Assembly (NCBI RefSeq): GCF_007750395.1
Contig: NZ_CP036281.1
Location: 5,913,001-5,977,000, forward strand
Length of the DNA stretch: 64,000 nt
Source: Polystyrenella longa
GTDB lineage: Bacteria > Planctomycetota > Planctomycetia > Planctomycetales > Planctomycetaceae
Reading direction: 5' to 3'
Shown here: in pieces, positions 478-29,581 of the stretch
How positions within the stretch are numbered: position 1 is the stretch's first letter
Layout: each line of letters opens with the position of its first letter
Notes under the pieces: model-generated
What the model was told of the DNA's origin: nothing
Database searches by the model: none
The model's input: only the letters and a program-made list of their open reading frames with translations
Made by a program: the position numbers and the translations under genes

Positions 478-3018
478 GTGTCGACTACTTCACCAGCTTC
501 GGCTAACAATGTGCTGCGAGATTATGCTCCACCCGAGCAGGTCTTCGACGAGTATATGCTTTCCTCTCGTCAACCACGGCCGCACGCCCAGAAGTTTCTA
601 CAAGCGATAAACAGTATCGGCCGTGAAGAATTCGATCTTCGATGGCAGCAGGTCCAGCGTTCTGTACAGGAAAACGATTTCGCGTATAGCGGATACATTG
701 GTGGTGAAGATCGTCCTCGTCCCTGGGAACTCGACGCACTCCCCCTGCTAATCACAGCTAAAGAGTGGAGTTCCGTTTCTGCTGCACTGGAACAACGGGC
801 TCGGTTACTCAACATGGTCCTGCAGGACCTCTATGGTGAGCAACGATTACTTAAAGATGGTGTCCTGCCGCCCGAACTGTTTTACTCGCATTCCGGTTTC
901 AAACGGGCTCTGCATCGGCACCAACCTGCCGATAGCTGCTTCCTCCATTTCTACGCCGCCGACCTGGCACGGTCCTCCGATGGTCAATGGTGGGTGCTGT
1001 CGGATCGTACCGAGGCCCCTTCGGGCGTCGGCTTTGCCCTGGAAAATCGCATCCTTGTCTCTCGCATGCTGCCCGAAGCGTTTCAACAATGCCGAGTTGA
1101 ACGGTTAGCACCTTTTTTCATTGCTGCAAGGAAGATGTTGCGAAACCTCGCCCCGCATCATACGGAGGACCCTCGCGTTGTACTACTAAGCAACGGACCG
1201 GCGAGCAACAACTATTTTGAAGATGCCTACCTCGCCCGTTATCTCGGATACACACTGGTGGAAGGGGGCGATCTGACGGTTCGAAATAATCAGGTCATGC
1301 TCAAGACTTTAGCGGGACTGTTGCCGGTCGATGTTATTTTACGTCGGCAGAACAGTAACGATTGCGACCCGCTCGAACTCGATCCTCATTCGGGTATCGG
1401 AATCGCTGGTCTCACTGAAGCAGTACGAGATGGAAACGTGGCCGTCGCGAATTCACTGGGAAGCGGATTGGTGGAATCGGTCGCCATTATGGCCTTCCTT
1501 CCACGATTGAGCCGTGCACTACTTGGCGAAGAATTATTGATTCCGGGTATCGCTTCCTGGTGGTGCGGGCAACCGCAGGAACTGGAATACGTACTGGACA
1601 ATCTGGAATCGTTGATTATCCAACCCGCCTTTCGCAGCCGCGGAAAAGATGGCCCGACGCGCAATGCGCTGGCGAAGATGTCGCGTAAAAAGCTCAAAGA
1701 AACACTGAAAGGCAATCCACACAGATATGTTGCTCAGGAGCAGGTTTGTCGTTCCAGCCTGCCCGTCTGGGAAGAACCCTGCAAACCAGCGTACCTTGCC
1801 ATTCGTGGTTTTGCCGTGGCCGAAAAAGACTCTTACCATGTGATGCCAGGGGCACTGGCAAGAACGTCTACTGCACTCGATCCATTGCAACTCTCCATTC
1901 GCAAAGGCGAGGGAAGCAAAGATACGTGGATTCTTTCCGACTCACCCGTAGAGCATGTGAGCCTGCTCGAACAACAGGGCCGCTCAACACCTCTGCGGCG
2001 AACGGGGGCCGAGTTGCCTTCGCGTGCGGCGGACAATCTGTTCTGGTTGGGACGTCAGTTGGAACGAGCCGATGCTTATGCCCGCGTGTTGAGGTGTGCC
2101 GTTGATAGGATCAGTGGTGAATCTCGATCAGCCAGCGATTTGGAAATACCCGTCTTAATTCGTTGCCTTGCTGATCAAGGACAGATTGAACCTGATTACG
2201 CAATCGATAAATTACGTGAGCAGTTGCCTTCGCTGGCAGTGGAACTCCCCAAATACGTGTTTGACAAATCTCAACCTTCCAGCCTGCGGTCGGTCGTGGA
2301 TGAACTTTTCCGTTTGGGATCAATCGTACGCGACCGGGTCTCGCTAGATACCTGGCGTACGATCCGTCGGATCGATAAACGCTTCCGCCCTGCCCGGTTT
2401 CGAGCGACGAATCTTTCGGATCTATCGGCATCAACAGACGAATTGATTACTGAGCTCGCCGCCTTCACCGGGATCGTCATGGAAAGCATGACCCGGACAC
2501 AGGCCTTCCGATTCCTGGAACTGGGGCGTCGACTCGAGCGATCGGTACAGATCGTGAGTCTCGTCAAGAACTTCTTCATTCCGCTACCCGAAGTACAGGT
2601 CCCCGTCTTTGAAACCTCGCTGGAAGTGGCCGACAGCATTATGACGTATCGATCCCGGTACCGCTCCAACCTGCAATTGCCAGCCGTGCTCGACTTATTG
2701 CTAACCGACGAGACCAATCCACGGTCGCTCCTGTTTCAGTTTGCAGAGCTTGCTGAACAGGTCGATCAGTTGCCTCGTAAACAGACATTGCCCGGTTACA
2801 CTTTGGAACAACGGCTCGCAATGGAATTGCTTCATTCGGTCCAGTTAATGGACATTGAACATGTCGCTGAAGTCCATGCTTTGGGAAATCATCAACCACT
2901 GGAACAGAGCATTCATTTCTGGGAAGAAAGCCTTCCCCGGTTGTCGGAAGCGATTTCCCACCGCTACCTGATTCATGCGACTCACTCCCATCAGTTGTCC
3001 GACATCAGCCCGCAATAA
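478..3018 (+). CDS. Circularly permuted ATP-grasp / alpha-E domain fusion protein
   Basis: This is an 846-residue cytoplasmic protein with a GTG start. Residues of roughly 75-490 resemble the circularly permuted ATP-grasp domain (DUF404/DUF407 type), for example YYLVLSNGP-like VVLLSNGPASNNYFEDAYLA and DVILRRQNSNDCDPLELDP. From about residue 510 the alpha-E domain (DUF403) begins with LPSRAADNLFWLGRQLERAD and runs to the end. In most genomes these two domains are separate neighbouring genes; here they are fused. ATP-grasp enzymes ligate carboxylates to amines using ATP, and the family has been predicted to act with transglutaminase-like peptidases on peptide tags or small peptides. It sits between the DUF2126-type protein and a transglutaminase, supporting one pathway. 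The exact product is unknown. Confidence 0.88.
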   Translation: MSTTSPASANNVLRDYAPPEQVFDEYMLSSRQPRPHAQKFLQAINSIGREEFDLRWQQVQRSVQENDFAYSGYIGGEDRPRPWELDALPLLITAKEWSSVSAALEQRARLLNMVLQDLYGEQRLLKDGVLPPELFYSHSGFKRALHRHQPADSCFLHFYAADLARSSDGQWWVLSDRTEAPSGVGFALENRILVSRMLPEAFQQCRVERLAPFFIAARKMLRNLAPHHTEDPRVVLLSNGPASNNYFEDAYLARYLGYTLVEGGDLTVRNNQVMLKTLAGLLPVDVILRRQNSNDCDPLELDPHSGIGIAGLTEAVRDGNVAVANSLGSGLVESVAIMAFLPRLSRALLGEELLIPGIASWWCGQPQELEYVLDNLESLIIQPAFRSRGKDGPTRNALAKMSRKKLKETLKGNPHRYVAQEQVCRSSLPVWEEPCKPAYLAIRGFAVAEKDSYHVMPGALARTSTALDPLQLSIRKGEGSKDTWILSDSPVEHVSLLEQQGRSTPLRRTGAELPSRAADNLFWLGRQLERADAYARVLRCAVDRISGESRSASDLEIPVLIRCLADQGQIEPDYAIDKLREQLPSLAVELPKYVFDKSQPSSLRSVVDELFRLGSIVRDRVSLDTWRTIRRIDKRFRPARFRATNLSDLSASTDELITELAAFTGIVMESMTRTQAFRFLELGRRLERSVQIVSLVKNFFIPLPEVQVPVFETSLEVADSIMTYRSRYRSNLQLPAVLDLLLTDETNPRSLLFQFAELAEQVDQLPRKQTLPGYTLEQRLAMELLHSVQLMDIEHVAEVHALGNHQPLEQSIHFWEESLPRLSEAISHRYLIHATHSHQLSDISPQ

Positions 3019-3069
3019 GTATTCAAACATAATAATTCAGAAGTTAATAAACAGTAGCGAAATAACATC

Positions 3070-3963
3070 GTGAAATACCGCATCACTCATAGTACCCGAT
3101 ACCAATATTCGCAGGCGGTGCCGGTCTGTCATAACCTGGTACATCTCTGCCCTCGAGAGTTACCGAGTCAGAGTCGGGATTCTTTTGCGCTGTTAATTCA
3201 TCCCGAACCAACACGGGTGACGACGCGCCAGGATTATTTTGGGAATGATGTCTCTCTTTTTTCCATCGATCATCCCCATTCTGGAATGACGGTGACCTCG
3301 CTCAGCGAAATGACTGTCACCGCCCGTCCGGTCATCGATCCGAAGAAAACGGCCCCTTGGGAAAAAGTGGCCGCTGAAACGAAATCGGCAGCGACAGACG
3401 AAGCACTGGATGCGTACCAGTTCGTCTTTGATTCGATCGGAGTGAAACGGGTTCCGGAACTGCTTGAGTATGTACAGGCTTCCTTTTCCGCAGGACGTCC
3501 CATCCTGGCGGGAGTGCTGGAGCTGACGGAACGAATTAACAAAGAGTTCCGCTACGATCCCCGAGCGACAACGGTGCATACCGAGGTCCGTGAGGTTTTT
3601 GAAAACCGCCACGGTGTCTGTCAGGACTTCGCCCATCTGCAGATCGGTTGCCTGCGAACGCTCGGAATCGCCGCCCGATACGTCAGTGGCTACTTGCGAA
3701 CCCTTCCCCCTCCCGGCAAACCTCGGTTAGTCGGAGCCGATGCTTCCCATGCCTGGCTGTCCGTATATTGTGGCGAAGCAGGCTGGATCGATGTTGATCC
3801 GACGAACAACTTGCTGGTTTCCAGTGACCATGTTTCGGTCGCCTGGGGTCGCGATTACTTCGACGTCTGCCCGATTCAAGGGACAATTGTCGGCGGCGGA
3901 CAACACAGCATGACGATTTCCGTCGATGTCGCTCCCATCGCGGACGAGCCTGTTCTTACTTGA
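3070..3963 (+). CDS. Transglutaminase-like cysteine protease family protein
   Basis: A 297-residue protein with a GTG start, 51 bp after the ATP-grasp/alpha-E gene. Residues 1-85 form the bacterial transglutaminase-like N-terminal domain. The core domain follows, with the catalytic triad visible as Cys184 in HGVCQDFAHLQIG, His227 in ASHAWLSVYCGEAGW and Asp243 in DVDPTNN. Bacterial members are mostly thought to be peptidases or amide-forming enzymes rather than true protein cross-linkers. Absence of a signal peptide suggests a cytoplasmic role. Third member of the DUF2126/ATP-grasp/alpha-E/transglutaminase cluster, which seems to end here because the following 500 bp hold no gene on this strand. 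Confidence 0.9.
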   Translation: MKYRITHSTRYQYSQAVPVCHNLVHLCPRELPSQSRDSFALLIHPEPTRVTTRQDYFGNDVSLFSIDHPHSGMTVTSLSEMTVTARPVIDPKKTAPWEKVAAETKSAATDEALDAYQFVFDSIGVKRVPELLEYVQASFSAGRPILAGVLELTERINKEFRYDPRATTVHTEVREVFENRHGVCQDFAHLQIGCLRTLGIAARYVSGYLRTLPPPGKPRLVGADASHAWLSVYCGEAGWIDVDPTNNLLVSSDHVSVAWGRDYFDVCPIQGTIVGGGQHSMTISVDVAPIADEPVLT

Positions 3964-4470
3964 TTCATCGCAGCCAGGTTTCCAGTCAGCAATAGTACTG
4001 AATTTGGTCGAACTTTCTCCCCCGCTGGTTTCGTATAGCTATGTAGGGGGACTCATCTGCCTATAATTTCAGTAATTAGGTGAGTTTGAGCAGTCTGCGA
4101 CTCCTCTCTTAATTGGCTATTGCTCCACATCTTACTTGCATAATCGGAACAGATTGCCCTGTAGGCACTTAAGCTCCAAACTTATTGCGTCGTCGCTCTT
4201 TGAGTTTACCAGACGATCAGCTAATATTCATAAAGTTGAACAATAGTTGGAATGTCCAGCGTAAGCGACCTCTAAGGGAAAACCCTGAAATATCGAGCGA
4301 AAGCGGGAATAGATTGTCCCGATTTCATCGAGTCATACTCTCCCTCCCGATTGCCTGGCTCAGTTTGTCTTTGATTGTTTCCGCAAAGTCCCTCCCTGGA
4401 AATGATCTGTTCTCCCAAATTTTCAAACTCTTAGAATCGAACGAAATTCGATAAGGAAATTCGTACGCCT
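3964..4470. other. Intergenic region before the DtxR-type regulator, no gene seen
   Basis: About 500 bp with no convincing coding sequence. An 89-codon open frame at 4185-4454 lacks a ribosome binding site and has a composition unlike a real protein. The region must hold the promoter of the metalloregulator gene that starts at 4471. No clear operator palindrome was found by eye. Confidence 0.5.
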
Positions 4471-20437: not shown

Positions 20438-23425
20438 CTATTGAACCCCTTGACCACCTTGGAGTTTGTCAATGACGATCTGATTTGTATCGGGATACCA
20501 GGTCATTGCTTTCGCAATCGTGCCTACCGGTTCGCCCCCTGCCTGCTCCTGTCGCCAGAAGTAGACCGACTCGCGTCCCAGCGAACGGAGATGGTACCGC
20601 TCCTTGGATTGGTCATAAGAAACCCGATCGGCGCGGGCATGGAAGGTATCACTTTCCAAGCGGACATTTCCGCTGGCCAGCAATTCGACAAATGTCGCCT
20701 CTTCCTCGGAGCCGGCCACCTGTTTTTTGATCTGGTTGATATCCAACTGCTGTGCGGACATCGTGCCTGAGCCTTCTACCAGCTGAGAACGTTGAATTAC
20801 CTGATGAGGTTGCTGCACCGGCCCGTACAGCATTTCGACGCCTCCATCAAAAGTGTTGTTTCGTTTGCGCAGGTTGCCGCTTGATTTTCGATTGAAATCG
20901 ACACGGATATAATTCCAGGGAGCGTCGCTCACCGAAAGGGATTTGTTCGACATAACTGAAGTGCTCGTTTCGAGAGAGGCCAAGTCCCCTTTGTCTTCGT
21001 CCTGAACCCAGATTTCAAAGTGACCCGGACCGATCGATTCCGTCTCGCCTGTTTGAGGGTGAATGTGGAGTTCCCACATTTCCCCCTTACGGATTTCAGT
21101 TAACTTCTCCCCTTCGAACTCTTTACTGAAGATGCGGACCTGTTCCTTACATTCAATCAGCTCGATCTCCGGCCGTTGTTCCTCTTCTTCATTGGACATG
21201 GCGATGGCTTCGGTGAAATGGACATTCATCGTCTGACAGGTAATTTTGCTTTGATTGGCTTCCGACATCGCAGTAACATGCCCAAAGAAGGAAGCTGTCT
21301 TTCCACTGAAAACCATTTTCTCCTGCCAGGCAATTGTCAGGTTGTCGGGCGATTCCAGGTCCTTGCCTTCGAAGTTCTTACGGATTTCCAAACTAAGTTG
21401 ACCAGGTCCCAGAACTTCGGCCTGTTCTGTTTCGGTATAAACCTGCAACTGATTCCCGGACAGATGTACTTGATGTCCCTGAACTTCCGCGGGGGCACCA
21501 AACACCGTGATCGTTTCCCGTCCGATATTGTCCCTCCAGAAGCGAACCAGATTTCCGGCTATCGCCAGATTGCGGTTCTCTTCAGGACTCGTTCGCTTCA
21601 CCATTACCTGTTCTAGAATCTCTGCCTGATGCAGTACTAGTTCTGGTTTCTTTTTGTCTTCTTCATTCTCTGAGGCAACATTTTCATCGAGATGAATCCG
21701 ATGCACGATGATTTTCATCTCTTTAGAAGTGACTGTGGCTGGATCTTCAAAACGGTCCGGAGTTTTGTTTTCTTCCGGTTCGTCATGACGCTCTATCACG
21801 CCACCCGGCTGATCATCTTCTGTGGAATGACCTGCCTGTTTCAATTGGTTGGCTTGCGCCATCGTCATGTCTTGAATCCAGACCTGCGTTAGCTCATTCC
21901 GGGCTTCCATGCTTTGCATCTGCATTTGCACATTGTCTTCGGCCCGCACAAATACGGGTTGTCGTTTGCTGTCCGGTTCTTCCTGGCTTCCTTCGACCAC
22001 CGGGGCCAACCACTCTTCCAGTCGCACCAGAATGCTCCCTGCAGAAGCAGCGAAGTTCTGTTCAGGAACCTGAAAGAAAGCCTGCTCTTCCAATCGAATA
22101 ATGTCCTGGTCCGATTCAATATCATGCCAGAAATGCATCTGTTTCATCCAGGAGGCCTGGAACTTCGTATCGCCCGATTCTTCATCTAACTGAACCAGTT
22201 TTCCGCGACCCAATCCGATGACCGATTCAATGTCATCAGCATCGTTGTGGATCAGCTGCAGTTCCGGACATTGTAAGTGGTTCTCTCCCATCTGGGCCGA
22301 GACCCCCCAGGAGCCGTTTAAGATCGCAGTCCGTTTCTCCAGGTCATAGACCAGATTCACGGTCTCTACCAGCAGTTCCTGCTTTTCAACGATCAATCTC
22401 ACTGGTTGGCCGGAGGCGCTAATGCGGCGGACCTGACTGAGCCCGTTATCTTCCTCTTCTTCAGACGTTTCTGTAGAAGCGGACTTTACTGCTGGAAACG
22501 CGGGAGGTTCTTCCTCGGCCGCCATTTCTATCGTTAATTTTTCCGGCGCATAAAGATGTTCCGACTCGCCCGGTTTAACTTGGCGGTGGATTTGAACGTT
22601 ATCCAGTAGTTGCGCCACATTCGACTTCAAATCGTAGATCAGGCTTCCCTGTGACGATACAGTTACGGGCCCTGAAAAATCGGCAGGCTCATTGGGATCA
22701 ATTTCCGTCAGGGGTGGTTGGTATTCAATACTGACGTTTTCACGCAGTCGTAAACTACGTACTCCACTGATAGGAATCTGGCCTTCACGTTTCAGAGCTT
22801 CATCTACCTCCAGATTCACGACGAGTCCGTCAGCAAACCCTTCGGTACCGTTGTACTGGAATTGAATTCGTTTATCGTCACAGACGATGCTCATCGCCTC
22901 TTCAGAATATACAAAGTTGCTTCCTTCGATGGAGAGCCCGTCTTGTCCCTTGATCTCGACGTTTCCACGTAGCTGGCCTTTAACCACCCGCAGTCCTTTT
23001 GGAGCACTGGTAAGACTGAACTCGCCGTTGAATTCAACCGTTCCTGAGTCGCAGGTCACGGTGAAGGGTTCCAGCGGTTCTTTGTCTCCTGGTTTCTGAA
23101 CAGGGACCCAGATCATCGCGAATGGCTCAAAGCGAATCATTGTACCTTCCTGTTTCAATTCCTGCGCAAAGATATACGCCTGGTCTCCCATCTTGAACTG
23201 ATACCCGGGGTTCTGCTGAACCCATTCGATGTTCTTTAAATGCTTGAGGGCCAGCTCCCGGTTTTCAATCGGTCCCCGTCTAAGTTCAGGAGAGGTAACC
23301 GGAATTCGATGTTCGAGCGCAAGCGTCGGTGGCGTCAACATGGGATTGACGAACCGGTGATATCCCCAGCCAATACCCATGAGTAGGCTGGTTATTATCA
23401 TCGTGATCATAAATTGGCGACGCAT
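20438..23425 (-). CDS. Very large LptA/LptC-like (OstA-type) envelope protein
   Basis: About 995 residues; I chose the ATG at 23425 over a GTG two codons earlier because GGAAC lies at suitable spacing. An N-terminal membrane anchor (FMITMIITSLLMGIGWGYHRF) is followed by long beta-rich repeats with LptA/OstA-like statements such as DSGTVEFNGEFSLTSAPKGL, ELLVETVNLVYDLEKRTAIL and FHARADRVSYDQSKERYHL. Glu-rich disordered linkers separate them. LptC and LptA form the periplasmic bridge that carries LPS to the outer membrane, and both are normally under 220 residues. The KdsD-type isomerase directly upstream on the same strand supports an LPS context, since kdsD-lptC-lptA is a standard order. Confidence 0.75.
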   Translation of the reverse strand: MRRQFMITMIITSLLMGIGWGYHRFVNPMLTPPTLALEHRIPVTSPELRRGPIENRELALKHLKNIEWVQQNPGYQFKMGDQAYIFAQELKQEGTMIRFEPFAMIWVPVQKPGDKEPLEPFTVTCDSGTVEFNGEFSLTSAPKGLRVVKGQLRGNVEIKGQDGLSIEGSNFVYSEEAMSIVCDDKRIQFQYNGTEGFADGLVVNLEVDEALKREGQIPISGVRSLRLRENVSIEYQPPLTEIDPNEPADFSGPVTVSSQGSLIYDLKSNVAQLLDNVQIHRQVKPGESEHLYAPEKLTIEMAAEEEPPAFPAVKSASTETSEEEEDNGLSQVRRISASGQPVRLIVEKQELLVETVNLVYDLEKRTAILNGSWGVSAQMGENHLQCPELQLIHNDADDIESVIGLGRGKLVQLDEESGDTKFQASWMKQMHFWHDIESDQDIIRLEEQAFFQVPEQNFAASAGSILVRLEEWLAPVVEGSQEEPDSKRQPVFVRAEDNVQMQMQSMEARNELTQVWIQDMTMAQANQLKQAGHSTEDDQPGGVIERHDEPEENKTPDRFEDPATVTSKEMKIIVHRIHLDENVASENEEDKKKPELVLHQAEILEQVMVKRTSPEENRNLAIAGNLVRFWRDNIGRETITVFGAPAEVQGHQVHLSGNQLQVYTETEQAEVLGPGQLSLEIRKNFEGKDLESPDNLTIAWQEKMVFSGKTASFFGHVTAMSEANQSKITCQTMNVHFTEAIAMSNEEEEQRPEIELIECKEQVRIFSKEFEGEKLTEIRKGEMWELHIHPQTGETESIGPGHFEIWVQDEDKGDLASLETSTSVMSNKSLSVSDAPWNYIRVDFNRKSSGNLRKRNNTFDGGVEMLYGPVQQPHQVIQRSQLVEGSGTMSAQQLDINQIKKQVAGSEEEATFVELLASGNVRLESDTFHARADRVSYDQSKERYHLRSLGRESVYFWRQEQAGGEPVGTIAKAMTWYPDTNQIVIDKLQGGQGVQ

Positions 23426-23553
23426 TCGCACAGTTCCAAAGGTAAGTATTCATTTCCGATCCAGTGAACCAGATCAGGAAACATTGTTCTATTTCAAGCT
23501 TGTAGTTGAACTTTTGACAGAGTGATCAAAACCATGGTGATCAAAAGAGGAAT

Positions 23554-24621
23554 TCAGGCTGCTCGTGCTCTCGAAGAATTTTGAATGGGTTGGCTTCCCG
23601 CCGGAAGCAGGCTGATTACGTCGGTGATGTCAAGCATTCCAATGGGTTGATGTTGCTGGTCAATTACGGGTAATTCACTCAGTTTACGCTCAGAGAGAAG
23701 AGCGACCGCGTCCGAGATTAACAGGTCCGGCATGACTGTGGTTGGGTTACGAGTCATGACCGATTTGATGGGCGCATCGAGTAGCGAATCGTGGCGGGTT
23801 TCCAGTAAACGGGCCAGGTCCGAGTCGGTGAAGATCCCGGAGAGCCTCTGTTGTTGATCGACGAGAACAATCGCTCCCGTGCGACGTCCATCGATATGAG
23901 CAGTCGCCAGCACTTCTCTCACTGTCTGTTCTTCAGAAGCTACCCTCACTCGGGAGCCAACCCGCATCAGATCACGGACGGTTTTAAATTGGAGTCCCAG
24001 GCTACCACCCGGGTGCCAGGCTGCAAACTGTTCCGGTTTGAATCCGCGCCGACGGGCTGTGACCAAGGCAAGAGCATCCCCCAGGCCGAGCATCGATGTT
24101 GTACTGGTTGAAGGAGCCAGGCCATGAGGACCGACTTCAGTTTGAGTCCCAAGAGCGATGACAACATCGGCTGATCGGGACAATGAACTTTGGTCATGCG
24201 CCGTTACGGCGATGATCGGGATATCCAGGCTGGTGACAAACGGGATGAGGCGAAGCAGTTCTTCGGTTTCACCACTGTTCGAGAACGCAATCAAGGTGTC
24301 CCCCTGACGCATGAAACCTAAATCGCCATGTACCGCTTCTACCGGATGCAGGAAATGAGCACGCGTGCCGGTCGAAGAAAGGGTCGCCGAGATTTTCTGA
24401 GCGATCAGGCCGGCCTTACCGATGCCGGTCAGAATGACGGTTCCCCGGCATTCGGCCAGCAGTTGAACAGCGCGGCAGAAATCGCGATTCAGCCGTCCAG
24501 CGAGTTTGATCAGCGCCGTTCCTTCCGTCTGCAGAACATCAGTCGCCTCTTGTAGAATTGATTCGACTTCAGCAGGTGCGAGCGGAGCAGAAACAGGTTT
24601 TGTCGTTGCCGCGCGATTCAT
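23554..24621 (-). CDS. kdsD: KpsF/GutQ-type arabinose-5-phosphate isomerase
   Basis: A 355-residue enzyme with an N-terminal SIS domain (about 40-180: VILTGIGKAGLIAQKISATL, FLHPVEAVHGDLGFMRQGD, SNSGETEELL) and two C-terminal CBS domains (about 215-340, ending IGMLDITDVISLL). It converts ribulose 5-phosphate to arabinose 5-phosphate, the first step toward Kdo of LPS. The GutQ and KpsF paralogues have the same layout, so the exact physiological role is inferred from the neighbouring LptC/LptA-like gene 129 bp downstream. Confidence 0.9.
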   Translation of the reverse strand: MNRAATTKPVSAPLAPAEVESILQEATDVLQTEGTALIKLAGRLNRDFCRAVQLLAECRGTVILTGIGKAGLIAQKISATLSSTGTRAHFLHPVEAVHGDLGFMRQGDTLIAFSNSGETEELLRLIPFVTSLDIPIIAVTAHDQSSLSRSADVVIALGTQTEVGPHGLAPSTSTTSMLGLGDALALVTARRRGFKPEQFAAWHPGGSLGLQFKTVRDLMRVGSRVRVASEEQTVREVLATAHIDGRRTGAIVLVDQQQRLSGIFTDSDLARLLETRHDSLLDAPIKSVMTRNPTTVMPDLLISDAVALLSERKLSELPVIDQQHQPIGMLDITDVISLLPAGSQPIQNSSRARAA

Positions 24622-26270: not shown

Positions 26271-26982
26271 TTACATCTCCCTTACCGAAACATGGCGTTC
26301 GTTCCGGCTGATTTCCCCCAAGCCGTTGCCAGACTTGAGGTTCGGATTGCCTCGCTAATATTTTTTCGCTTCTATCATTCCCTTTTTCACCTTTCCGGTC
26401 AACCTGAGGACGATATTTACTTCACCTTGACTGTCCCGTTCGTCGACGGAAATTTGAAGAGGCCATAAAAGCAGGTCGTAGGGGAACTGATTTCCGCGAC
26501 TACAGGAAACGTTAACTCTTTCGCCCAAACTACTTGCATTGCCTAGTAGGAGGCTTAAAATAAGGGAACGGGCGGAAAGGAACTTCTCTCGCGGACGGCC
26601 CGGGTAGGGATACTGCCAGTTGTAGTGAATCTTTGGATTTGCAACGAAACCCTAAAACACGTCCTAAGGTTTACCACACTTTTATGATCTACACCCAACT
26701 CCTGTTTGTCAGCGGGCAGAAGGTGTGAAACAGTAGAGTGTGTCGATCTGACTTCGCGAATAACCGATAAGAACAGAGATTCTCCCCTCTGAAACGAATA
26801 AGACTGTGAAGTCCGTATATAATTACAGGTGAATCTTTTTTAGGCGATCTATCGTTTCCGAAGCGATGTGCCGTTCTCGAAAAAGAGTCACCTCCGATAA
26901 CGATCCTTTCCGCAGCTCATGCTGCAATCCTGTCCCAACCGCATTCACGCGAGCTGGTCAAATACCCGGAGTTCCTGCAAAC
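26271..26982. other. Long intergenic region upstream of the DSDV-repeat protein
   Basis: About 710 bp between two divergent genes. No frame reads as a protein and none of the common small RNAs (RNase P RNA, tmRNA, SRP RNA) was recognised. A 39-codon in-frame extension of the following gene from 26866 was rejected as coding. The region is long enough for complex regulation. Confidence 0.4.
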
Positions 26983-28749
26983 ATGGCTAACCGATATCTC
27001 AGTCTGGAAGAAACCGCTGAACTGCTTGGAATCACCCCTGACGAATTAAAGCAGATTCGGAATCGTAATGAAATTCGCGGGTATGCCGATCGGGGTTCGT
27101 GGAAATTCCGTGAAGACGAGGTCAACGAGTACCGCCGTAGCCAGCGTCCCGATTCCGATCCGGATGTACCGCTCTATCAGCCGGAGCCACCTGCTTCGCC
27201 CGTGACGCCGGAAGACACGGCCTCCATGGCCGACAGTTCGTCCGACAGTGACGTCCGTCTGGTTCTCGACGAAAACCTCGTCGGCGACGACAGTGAACCG
27301 GAAATCTCCTTCGATTCGATTGGAGACTCCGACAGCGACGTGCGACTGGTCGATCAGAATATTGATAAAAAATCAGACAGCGATGTCAAAATCGTCGCCA
27401 ATGACACCGGTGCAGAATTGCCAGTCCCGAACGATTCCCTGAGTGGAACCGACTCCGACGTTAAACTGGTCAGCGCCGAGTCAGACAGTGATGTGAATTT
27501 GATTCAGGACGACTCCGATAGCGATGTCAAAATCTCCAACGACGACACCCAGATGGAAATTGAAACGACCGGCGGAAAACAGTCCGACAGCGACGTAAAA
27601 ATTGTCGAGACAGACAACGACGTCATTCAGCCCATCAGTATCGCGGGTACCGATCCAGATGCCTCGCTCGCTGCCGAAAGCGACAGCCACGTGAATCTCG
27701 AACCGGAACTGGACGAGATGGGCGCAGACTCGGACTCCGACGTACAACTCTCTGAAGATGAACCCGAAACTGGCTTCGACTTCGGAAGCGATAGCGATGT
27801 TCGACTCGTTGGGGACAAGAATCCTCAGCTCGAAGGGAGCGACAGCGATGTCGCCCTCGTCTCTGATGAGGATCTTGCCGACGAAAGCGGCATCTCCCTC
27901 GCCGAGAGTGAAGATTCAGACATTCGTATCTCGGGCGAAAGTGGAATTTCCCTGAACGACCCGATCGACAGTGGTATCTCCCTTGAATCCGATGACAGCG
28001 GCCTGGCTCTCGAGCCGGAAGACGATAGTACCATTTCTCTCCTGCCCGACGACGACAGCGGTATCTCCCTCGAAATGGCGGATGACAGTGGCATCTCTCT
28101 CGAAGATGACAGCGGCATCAGCATGGAACAGGATGAACTTGAGGGAACCATCCCCATGATGGCGACCCAGGGAGGAAAGGATACCGACAACTTCGACACG
28201 ATGGCCGACGAATTCGCTCTGTCTGATGACACGAGCGACGATACTGAAATGCTCTTCATGGAAGATGATGAAGATCAGGCGTCGACGATGGCCGGAGCAG
28301 AATCAGCCGATGCCTTTGAAATGGCCGATTCTGAATTCGAAGACATGGAGAGTGAAGAATTCGAACTTGAAGGTTCGCTCGACGAGTTCAATGAATTCGA
28401 AGGAGAAGATTTCGACTTCGAAGAAGATGGTGAATCGGTCTCCACGCTGGATGAATTCGACGTCTTCGATGCCGACGATGATGTCTTCGATGAAGAAGGG
28501 TTCGAAACAGGCGAAAGTGCTGCCGACTTTGGTCGTCCCATGCCAGCCGGTATGGGCGGGCGTTCGGAAATGGTGGCAGCTCCCGCCGAATGGGATGGCT
28601 TGTCAGTTGGACTCGCATTCGGCTCCGCCCTGGTAATGCTACTTTGCATGTTCATCGCTATCGACCTCGTTCGCTCCATGTGGGCACCACTCCCCGCAAC
28701 CGGCAGCCCTGGTGGACTACTGATCGACACGCTCGGTGGCATGTTCTAA
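26983..28749 (+). CDS. HTH protein with DSDV and DSGISLE acidic repeats and a C-terminal membrane helix
   Basis: A 588-residue protein with the ATG at 26983, where the family-like N-terminus ANRYLSLEETAELLGI begins. Residues 1-55 are an excisionase/MerR-type helix-turn-helix (LGITPDELKQIRNRNEIRGY, then RGSWKFREDEVNEYRR). Then come about ten copies of a D-S-D-V-x-[LI] unit separated by acidic spacers, then about eight copies of [DE]-S-G-[IL]-S-[LM]-E, then a Glu/Asp/Phe-rich block. The C-terminus has one hydrophobic helix (SVGLAFGSALVMLLCMFIAI). The layout suggests a membrane-tethered protein with a long flexible acidic linker; whether the helix-turn-helix binds DNA is not known. A strong terminator follows. 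Confidence 0.75.
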   Translation: MANRYLSLEETAELLGITPDELKQIRNRNEIRGYADRGSWKFREDEVNEYRRSQRPDSDPDVPLYQPEPPASPVTPEDTASMADSSSDSDVRLVLDENLVGDDSEPEISFDSIGDSDSDVRLVDQNIDKKSDSDVKIVANDTGAELPVPNDSLSGTDSDVKLVSAESDSDVNLIQDDSDSDVKISNDDTQMEIETTGGKQSDSDVKIVETDNDVIQPISIAGTDPDASLAAESDSHVNLEPELDEMGADSDSDVQLSEDEPETGFDFGSDSDVRLVGDKNPQLEGSDSDVALVSDEDLADESGISLAESEDSDIRISGESGISLNDPIDSGISLESDDSGLALEPEDDSTISLLPDDDSGISLEMADDSGISLEDDSGISMEQDELEGTIPMMATQGGKDTDNFDTMADEFALSDDTSDDTEMLFMEDDEDQASTMAGAESADAFEMADSEFEDMESEEFELEGSLDEFNEFEGEDFDFEEDGESVSTLDEFDVFDADDDVFDEEGFETGESAADFGRPMPAGMGGRSEMVAAPAEWDGLSVGLAFGSALVMLLCMFIAIDLVRSMWAPLPATGSPGGLLIDTLGGMF

Positions 28750-28780
28750 GAGCCACTAAAACTACCACTCATAAAAATCA

Positions 28781-28816
28781 AACCACCCGTCTGAAATCAG
28801 GCGGGTGGTTTTTTGT
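28781..28816 (+). terminator. Rho-independent terminator after the DSDV-repeat gene
   Basis: A 9-bp stem AACCACCCG / CGGGTGGTT with a 12-base loop is directly followed by a run of T. It starts 31 bp after the stop codon of the repeat protein gene. The run of A before it means it may also act for the convergent gene that ends at 28841. Confidence 0.9.
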
Positions 28817-28840: not shown

Positions 28841-29581
28841 TCATTCCGTCGCTAAAAGCGTTTCGCCGCAGACGGGACATTCGGCGAGGTTATTACGAAC
28901 CTGTTCACCGCAGGCCGGGCAGGTGGTTCCCAGCTCGAATAGAATGGCGTGCTTCTCTTCCTGTTTCTGGTGTAATTGCCGTACCAGTCGCACCATCACA
29001 ACAATCGAGGCAACTTCCACAATGACCAGGGAGAGTTGCCCCTGGTAAGTCCACTCAGGCGCAGCAAGAGTTGTCCAGAAGGTGACGATCATCGACAGAA
29101 TCGTTCCACCGACCCAGACGAGCCACCAAGTCAACACGACCGGACTTGGCCAGTTGCGACCTTCTTTCTCTAGATCAGTAACACTGTGATTCCATATTCG
29201 TGAGACGATCGGGAGGCCAAGTCCGAAGTTGACGAACGGAATAAAAAAGAACAGCGTGGCCCATCCCGGAGTAAAAGCAGGAGGCTGAGTCACTGATAAA
29301 GCAAAAGCATTCACGCTGCTTCTGTATATCCAGACGAGAGAAGCAATCAGAAACACCCAGTTCACGATCCCCGCGAAGATGCCGAACCCCAGTTCGACGT
29401 TTGTTGCTAACTTAAACAGAAAATCGTCATTCTTATTCTGCCCATTCATTTCGAGATAGATAAAAAACAGACTGATGCCGACCCAAACCGGCACGCAAAC
29501 AGCGCGAACCAGACAAACGCCAACGACAAACCGGGAAATTGATCGCGTACTGGTGTATTCGTAATCAGTGGAAATGGCCAA
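28841..29581 (-). CDS. DUF4328-type membrane protein with C-terminal zinc ribbon
   Basis: A 246-residue protein with a TTG start preceded by GAGAGGATAGC. Four to five predicted helices (about 18-42, 65-90, 105-128, 148-170, 178-200) include FTPGWATLFFFIPFVNFGLG, typical of the DUF4328 family. The last 35 residues form a small zinc ribbon with two C-x2-C pairs (CPACGEQ and CPVCGE). Its function is unknown. The zinc ribbon tail is an addition that many planctomycete small membrane proteins carry at one end. Confidence 0.78.
   Translation of the reverse strand: MAISTDYEYTSTRSISRFVVGVCLVRAVCVPVWVGISLFFIYLEMNGQNKNDDFLFKLATNVELGFGIFAGIVNWVFLIASLVWIYRSSVNAFALSVTQPPAFTPGWATLFFFIPFVNFGLGLPIVSRIWNHSVTDLEKEGRNWPSPVVLTWWLVWVGGTILSMIVTFWTTLAAPEWTYQGQLSLVIVEVASIVVMVRLVRQLHQKQEEKHAILFELGTTCPACGEQVRNNLAECPVCGETLLATE

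Follow-up and report, generated by a model that had tools for sequence, protein, structure and literature searches.

The stretch of DNA analysed here (hereafter the window) comprises 64,000 nucleotides of the Polystyrenella longa genome (NCBI RefSeq assembly GCF_007750395.1, contig NZ_CP036281.1, positions 5,913,001 to 5,977,000 of the forward strand). On this strand lies a gene, single-copy in the host genome, coding for a protein with an N-terminal winged helix-turn-helix (wHTH), a long acidic array of short motifs and a C-terminal membrane segment, referred to below as the HTH-tether protein (Table 1). The ATG at 26983 was chosen over the alternative start of the longest open reading frame (ORF), at 26866, because the N-termini of the homologues begin at M-A-(K/N)-(K/R)-Y. 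The gene is followed by a terminator-like hairpin, a pattern found nine times in the region as compared to 3.2 times in shuffled sequences.

Table 1. Features of the HTH-tether gene and its product, and the FHA-domain protein encoded elsewhere in the host genome (coordinates refer to the window unless otherwise indicated)
Feature	Position	Strand	Basis
GGAG, likely ribosome-binding site, 11 bases 5' of the ATG	26968..26971	+	Read from sequence
CDS, 588 aa, membrane-tethered wHTH protein	26983..28749	+	Start placed by homologues
Winged helix-turn-helix, residues 5-55	26995..27147	+	Pfam HTH_17 E 3.3e-8; AF2 mean pLDDT 80.1
Block A: 11 units SDSD[VI]-x-[LI] (10 DSDV, 1 DSDI), residues 88-316	27241..27930	+	
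Block B: 8 units [DES]S[GT][IL]x[LM], residues 301-381, overlapping the last block A unit	27883..28125	+	
Strongly acidic segment, residues 385-535; amino acid identity with two congeners, 0.84	28135..28587	+	Sequence
T-I-P-M, Thr389, candidate phospho-threonine/FHA site	28147..28158	+	
DDTEMLFMEDD (with Thr421), third motif variant, corresponding to orthologue D-[TS]-S-V-[LI]-x-F-D; candidate FHA ligand	28237..28269	+	
Transmembrane helix, residues 539-567 (window of residues 542-560)	28597..28683	+	Hydropathy; AF2 helix, low confidence
28-residue tail past the hydrophobic window, hydrophobic end	28663..28746	+	
Terminator-like hairpin, 14 pairs, then T-rich tail	28780..28811	+	Pattern scan
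Small FHA-domain protein, 128 residues, ending SDSDVRLIED	L123 3047-3433, host genome outside the window	-	PF00498 E 6.6e-15

No conserved operon was found around the HTH-tether gene among 41 loci: a divergent MFS gene lies nearby in six of them, and no more than seven have a downstream gene on the same strand, three of the seven having been placed by eye. In the window, a DUF4328 membrane protein with a zinc-ribbon-like C-terminal end is encoded convergently at 28841-29581 (-). Genes for a KpsF/KdsD-type sugar-phosphate isomerase and for a 997-residue protein with a weak match to LptA/LptD_N occupy 20438-24621 (-), possibly lipopolysaccharide genes. A search for defence systems using PADLOC returned no match, and a defence role was discarded with the MAD1 model at only 13.2 bits (cut-off 80). 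The match of residues 56-315 to the ClfB adhesin model (E 0.00012), an NCBI model of the exception type with a cut-off of 999, reflects DS-repeat composition; the adhesin reading was dropped because no export signal is visible and the protein has an N-terminal HTH.

A preliminary description of this gene, made from its sequence, had proposed an excisionase-type HTH at the N-terminus, and such a domain is indeed recognized by Pfam HTH_17 with 34.1 bits, above the curated cut-off of 27; the excise model TIGR01764 scored 24.1, under its cut-off of 28.8. An AF2 model of residues 1-72, built from a two-sequence alignment, is a winged HTH with a strand (residues 5-7), two helices (8-15 and 19-27), a two-stranded wing (33-36 and 39-43) and a further helix (44-54), as for winged helices of the MerR/Xis type. 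The solved folds nearest to this model were BldC (6ama; Foldseek E 0.02, TMq 0.59), Xis (4j2n; VIA Z 7.4), RacA (5i44; E 0.083) and CbpM bound to the J-domain of CbpA (3ucs; TMq 0.61, VIA Z 6.3); no Foldseek match reached E <=0.001 and no VIA Z reached 8. Among solved chains, none of MerR type was matched by the HTH profile A1 at E values of up to 1, no sequence similarity between BldC and the head was detected in profile searches, and profile A6 matched RacA weakly (E 0.19). The top match of both HTH profiles among solved chains, 8vd6 ('cap repeat'), was set aside, its alignment covering the HTH helices only.

Lysine or arginine is found in the head at columns 26, 32 and 52 in all 35 aligned family members and at columns 37, 41 and 43 in 34 of the 35, six positions that map to the modelled helix 19-27, the wing and the last helix. 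At column 24, R/K occurs in 29/35 members, but the HTH-tether protein of P. longa has Q24. The weak profile alignment with RacA sets a recognition-helix arginine of that protein opposite this column, and this residue would be the arginine, equivalent to BldC Arg30, that makes base contacts in RacA (PMC5859096). The head carries almost no net charge (median 0, range -4 to 5), which, like Q24, counts against DNA binding. Considering that BldC and RacA both bind DNA through such a wHTH (PMC5859096), the fold matches and the conserved basic residues make it likely that the head binds DNA.

The linker following the head had been described as containing about ten DSDV-x-L units and then about eight DSGISLE units, and the counts obtained here, 11 for DSD[VI]-x-[LI] and 8 for [DES]S[GT][IL]x[LM], agree closely with that description. 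DSD[VIA] occurs 11 times in the linker against a shuffle mean of 0.44, and [DES]SG[ILV] seven times against 0.34 (200 shuffles, maximum of three for each motif). Among 43 representatives, the consensus is S-D-S-D-V-[RK]-L-[VA] in block A (331 sites) and D-S-G-I-S-L-[ED] in block B (317 sites), the two having the common core S-[DG]-[VI]-x-L. The acidic form S-D-S-D-V-x-L-V looks somewhat like a SUMO-interaction motif, and a SUMO-type reading is speculative. A third variant, D-[TS]-S-V-[LI]-x-F-D, is located C-terminal to block B in 34 of 60 distinct orthologues, when 1.2 would be expected.

Repeat number varies between homologues, as the preliminary description had asked: in the 60 orthologues, remaining from 68 after merging of identical sequences and all filtered for at least two block A units, it ranges from 2 to 19 in block A (median 7) and from 1 to 13 in block B (median 7). 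One locus (L042), with no ORF containing two or more DSD[VI], is absent from this set. Block A precedes block B in 3373 of the 3592 pairs in these orthologues. Conserved repeat spacing, whose absence the preliminary description had named as a ground for refuting the design, holds for most of block B, where 149 of 232 steps measure 8-10 residues, but not for block A, whose 289 steps range irregularly from 9 to 131 residues (43 representatives). In comparisons with two congeners, amino acid identity amounts to 95 and 96% in block A and 98 and 98% in block B, as against 67 and 70% in the spacers, the HTH reaching 91 and 82%; synonymous sites of the motifs are heavily changed (pS 0.53-0.90). Because motif identity stands far above that of the spacers despite this heavy synonymous change, the motifs are, judging from these comparisons, selected as short linear motifs borne by a flexible chain, and are not DNA repeats of recent origin. 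The earlier proposal of repeated partner binding by the periodic motif gains strength, as a prediction, from this conservation over the spacers and from the recurrence of the motif in the FHA protein described below. A full-length AF2 model, a poor one (mean pLDDT 40.4), is free of long helices from residue 55 to residue 538 and suggests disorder followed by a C-terminal helix.

The single membrane helix anticipated at the C-terminus corresponds to the one hydrophobic segment of the protein, whose best Kyte-Doolittle window (2.54, residues 542-560) ends 28 residues before the C-terminus. The same arrangement of HTH, acidic motif tether and membrane helix is kept by the homologues: one C-terminal hydrophobic segment exceeding the usual hydropathy limit is present in all 60 orthologues, 24-30 residues from the end, and no second segment scores above 1.13 in any of them. 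The charges flanking the helix (median of one K/R on each side) give no indication of its topology, and the fold of the head would place it in the cytoplasm.

The HTH-tether protein was matched in 162 of 170 host-family genomes (128 of the 130 good genomes) and in 55 of 58 genera. At least two host-family genomes (L120 and L158) encode a second, similarly built copy; that of L158, at 2481-4406 (+), has eight DSD[VI] and nine [DE]SG[ILV] and a wing devoid of the usual basic residues. Across the phylum, profile A1 at E 1e-10 retrieved 66/392 genomes, and 12 of 13 same-class genomes outside the host family, while the broader profile A6 at E 1e-7 retrieved 297/392 (178 of 217 good ones). Since HTH_17 domains are common, the latter count alone proves little, and ORFs were therefore read: a hydrophobic window of at least 1.84 was found in 16/16 ORFs read among the profile matches, and the HTH, a membrane segment and an acidic linker (D+E, 19-41%) in 20/20 further phylum ORFs, these being hand-picked from the lower part of the match table and not drawn at random. 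A short tail is not universal, some distant members (e.g. L222, L225, L226) having 90-140 residues past the helix. The linkers of distant members (L208-L227) have neither of the two repeat types and, by eye, recurring D-T-[FIL]-[ILV]-[DE] and GM[AS]T. Taken at the level of sequence, the HTH-tether protein is a conserved planctomycete protein, near-universal and single-copy in one family. Literature searches by motif letters or keywords yielded no publication recognizable as dealing with it among the top-ranked matches.

The block A motif is also found in an unrelated protein with a single FHA domain, encoded outside the window and ending in one copy of it (Table 1). A DNA motif scan of the host genome gave 24 matches, nine in the HTH-tether gene and 15 elsewhere (control, 5), five stretches of the latter having been read. 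In nine other host-family genomes, 58 exact matches were distributed over the HTH-tether gene (43), a paralogue (5), the FHA gene (1) and other places (9, close to the control of 8). An FHA orthologue at about 2e-30 or better is present in 154/170 host-family genomes, and the FHA protein was detected in 140/198 class genomes at E 1e-18. The FHA domain is retained by these orthologues throughout the family and much of the class, whereas their C-terminal tails change. Near the C-terminus, 27 of 40 family orthologues have an SDSDVRL-type motif, against 0.16 expected from shuffles; the motif is missing from the other 13, one of which ends at a contig end. Outside the host family, 20 loci were inspected, two of them without a recognisable ORF. 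The block A form of the motif was found in none of the 18 tails read, the tail from genome G612 having the near form SDIDL; it is likewise absent from the FHA protein of G518. Of 18 HTH proteins encoded in this set of genomes, by contrast, 14 contain between one and three block A units. A role of the motif as a general tag of FHA proteins is thus ruled out (0/18 tails outside the family versus 27/40 within it), and its sharing between the two proteins is, on present sequences, a host-family trait.

The FHA and HTH-tether genes are not neighbours. A gene that we assign to the LpxI-like family adjoins the FHA gene in 8 of 42 loci and provides no clear lead. In the FHA tails of family f101 (L262-L268), another conserved stretch, N-x-LPD[VA]Y, was noted by eye and is perhaps another docking motif.

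Threonines resembling FHA ligands are conserved in both proteins. The column of Thr389 is occupied by Thr in 33 of 35 aligned orthologues and by a gap in the remaining two, and the patterns TxP[MLI] and T[SEGN][VM][LI] occur in 47/60 and 39/60 HTH-tether proteins (5.5 and 3.5 expected, respectively), T[EQ]x[ILMVF] being found in 37/40 FHA tails (2.1 expected). In the FHA self-ligands of GarA, OdhI and DgcB, as described in PMC6733907, the threonine is followed by serine at +1 and by hydrophobic residues at +2 and +3, a pattern that the DTSVL of the third motif variant fits. The host FHA protein is one of the three without a T[EQ]x[ILMVF] site, and the DDTEML of the host HTH-tether protein is of the type commonly seen in FHA tails, an exchange possibly due to chance. 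Because the FHA tail has the same motif as the tether and both proteins keep FHA-ligand-like threonines, we propose that the FHA protein is a member of the assembly, which may be regulated by Ser/Thr phosphorylation through it.

Our tentative first choice, held with somewhat less than even confidence, is that the HTH-tether protein constitutes a membrane-fixed, DNA-linked recruitment hub of RacA/RocS-like design, phospho-regulated together with the FHA protein. This proposal builds on the observed architecture, its family-wide conservation, the selection on the motifs and their sharing with the FHA protein, and has DNA binding, a cytoplasmic head, the identity of the partner and phosphorylation as its putative elements. 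In such a single-pass membrane protein, a winged helix of the MerR/Xis type would be carried by an acidic, disordered tether about 480 residues long. The tether is an array of D-[ST]-[DGS]-[VI]-x-[LIMF], a motif that takes the forms SDSDV[RK]L, DSGISL and DTSVLxF, and with about seven such docking sites it would concentrate a soluble partner close to the membrane and, if the head binds DNA, also near a DNA site. In the host family, the FHA protein, with one motif copy in its tail, would belong to this assembly and phosphorylation would regulate it. An extension of the proposal appears rather unlikely to us: planctomycetes would have a core phospho-regulated membrane-chromosome link with up to 19 docking motifs, to which the Planctomycetaceae-like family would add a GarA-like FHA adaptor that also bears the motif. 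If true, such a link could serve to place the nucleoid at the invaginated membrane, or to condense it there, in bacteria dividing without FtsZ.

The main rival of the recruitment hub is a transmembrane transcription regulator (TTR), whose head would control promoters either from the membrane or after cleavage, the acidic array contacting a co-regulator or RNA polymerase. Proteins combining a DNA-binding-type domain with a membrane helix are by definition TTRs, most commonly single-pass (PMC10269533), and the short distal tail and the small residues of the helix would suit intramembrane cleavage. However, the 24-30 residues beyond the membrane leave no room for an outer sensor domain, and the low counts of MFS and downstream genes around the locus offer no conserved neighbour to be regulated, so that we regard a TTR as possible but doubtful. 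Alternatively, the winged helix might bind a protein, as in CbpM, the whole being a membrane scaffold without a direct link to the chromosome. The presence of the CbpM-CbpA J-domain complex among the fold matches and the net charge of about zero are consistent with such a head, but the basic residues kept at six positions in at least 34/35 members, in helix 19-27, the wing and the last helix, argue against it, and we consider it improbable. Finally, a functionless low-complexity acidic filler, growing and shrinking by DNA slippage, would be in keeping with an acidic, Ser-rich and disordered linker of variable repeat number, but is very hard to believe in, as it requires motif and spacer residues to evolve at equal rates, which is not the case (motifs 95-98% identical with heavily changed synonymous sites, spacers diverged), and is at odds with the conserved block order and with the same motif in the unrelated FHA protein.

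The membranes and the division of planctomycetes are unusual, and many of their phylum-restricted proteins have no known role (PMC10632474). The HTH-tether protein deserves attention here, being nearly universal and single-copy in one family and having similarly built relatives phylum-wide. It furthermore offers two handles: its short motif could serve as bait for the partner, and the FHA protein is a candidate member of the assembly. If the head binds DNA, it would also open a direct route to the question of how these bacteria attach their nucleoid to the membrane.

The design is less odd than the preliminary description claimed. Many bacterial proteins combine a DNA-binding domain with a membrane anchor (PMC10269533), and the same order of parts has been reported for RocS of Streptococcus pneumoniae (PMC11500499). 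With TTRs, the HTH-tether protein has in common a DNA-binding-type domain and a single-pass membrane helix, called here by hydropathy, and it falls under their definition as proteins with a DNA-binding domain and at least one membrane region; it differs from them in having no outer sensor domain, a long motif array and a near-universal presence in one bacterial family. The main text of the TTR survey was found to contain no mention of HTH_17 or excisionase (PMC10269533). The BldC family has a wHTH without the coiled-coil dimerisation domain of MerR, as here, but BldC is a soluble regulator of 68 residues (PMC5859096), and a protein of 588 residues with a tether and a membrane helix lies outside that family of small stand-alone wHTH proteins binding direct repeats head to tail, the mode of DNA binding left aside. 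Rv3852 of Mycobacterium tuberculosis, compared by description only, is likewise DNA-associated, anchored by a C-terminal transmembrane helix and provided with a partner at the pole, but is described as exclusive to M. tuberculosis and its close relatives (PMC8233713).

With regard to the FHA companion, GarA, OdhI and DgcB similarly have an FHA domain and a conserved tail threonine site with a hydrophobic residue at +3 (PMC12321487, PMC6733907). In contrast to these proteins, the candidate site of the companion lies C-terminal to the FHA domain and not before it, and its tail adds SDSDVRL; indeed, the host protein starts about 20 residues before the FHA domain, and the T[EQ]x[ILMVF] of the family lies after it.

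RacA of Bacillus subtilis also begins with a MerR-like wHTH head followed by a long region and ties the nucleoid to a membrane-associated anchor, but, as described, it has a coiled coil, reaches the pole via DivIVA and is devoid of a membrane helix or of such a motif array (PMC11500499, PMC5859096). The closest working parallel, by analogy, would be RocS, with an N-terminal MerR-type wHTH, a long middle region and a C-terminal membrane anchor, in which a Ser/Thr kinase turns DNA binding off (PMC11500499). In place of the apparently disordered motif array and the transmembrane helix of the HTH-tether protein, RocS contains a coiled coil with DUF536 and an amphipathic helix. DNA binding and a role in chromosome segregation have been demonstrated for RocS (PMC11500499) and would be putative for the HTH-tether protein. 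A DNA-binding-type domain on a membrane anchor was therefore already known, and what the HTH-tether protein adds is a tether made of a motif array, its wide distribution and an FHA companion.
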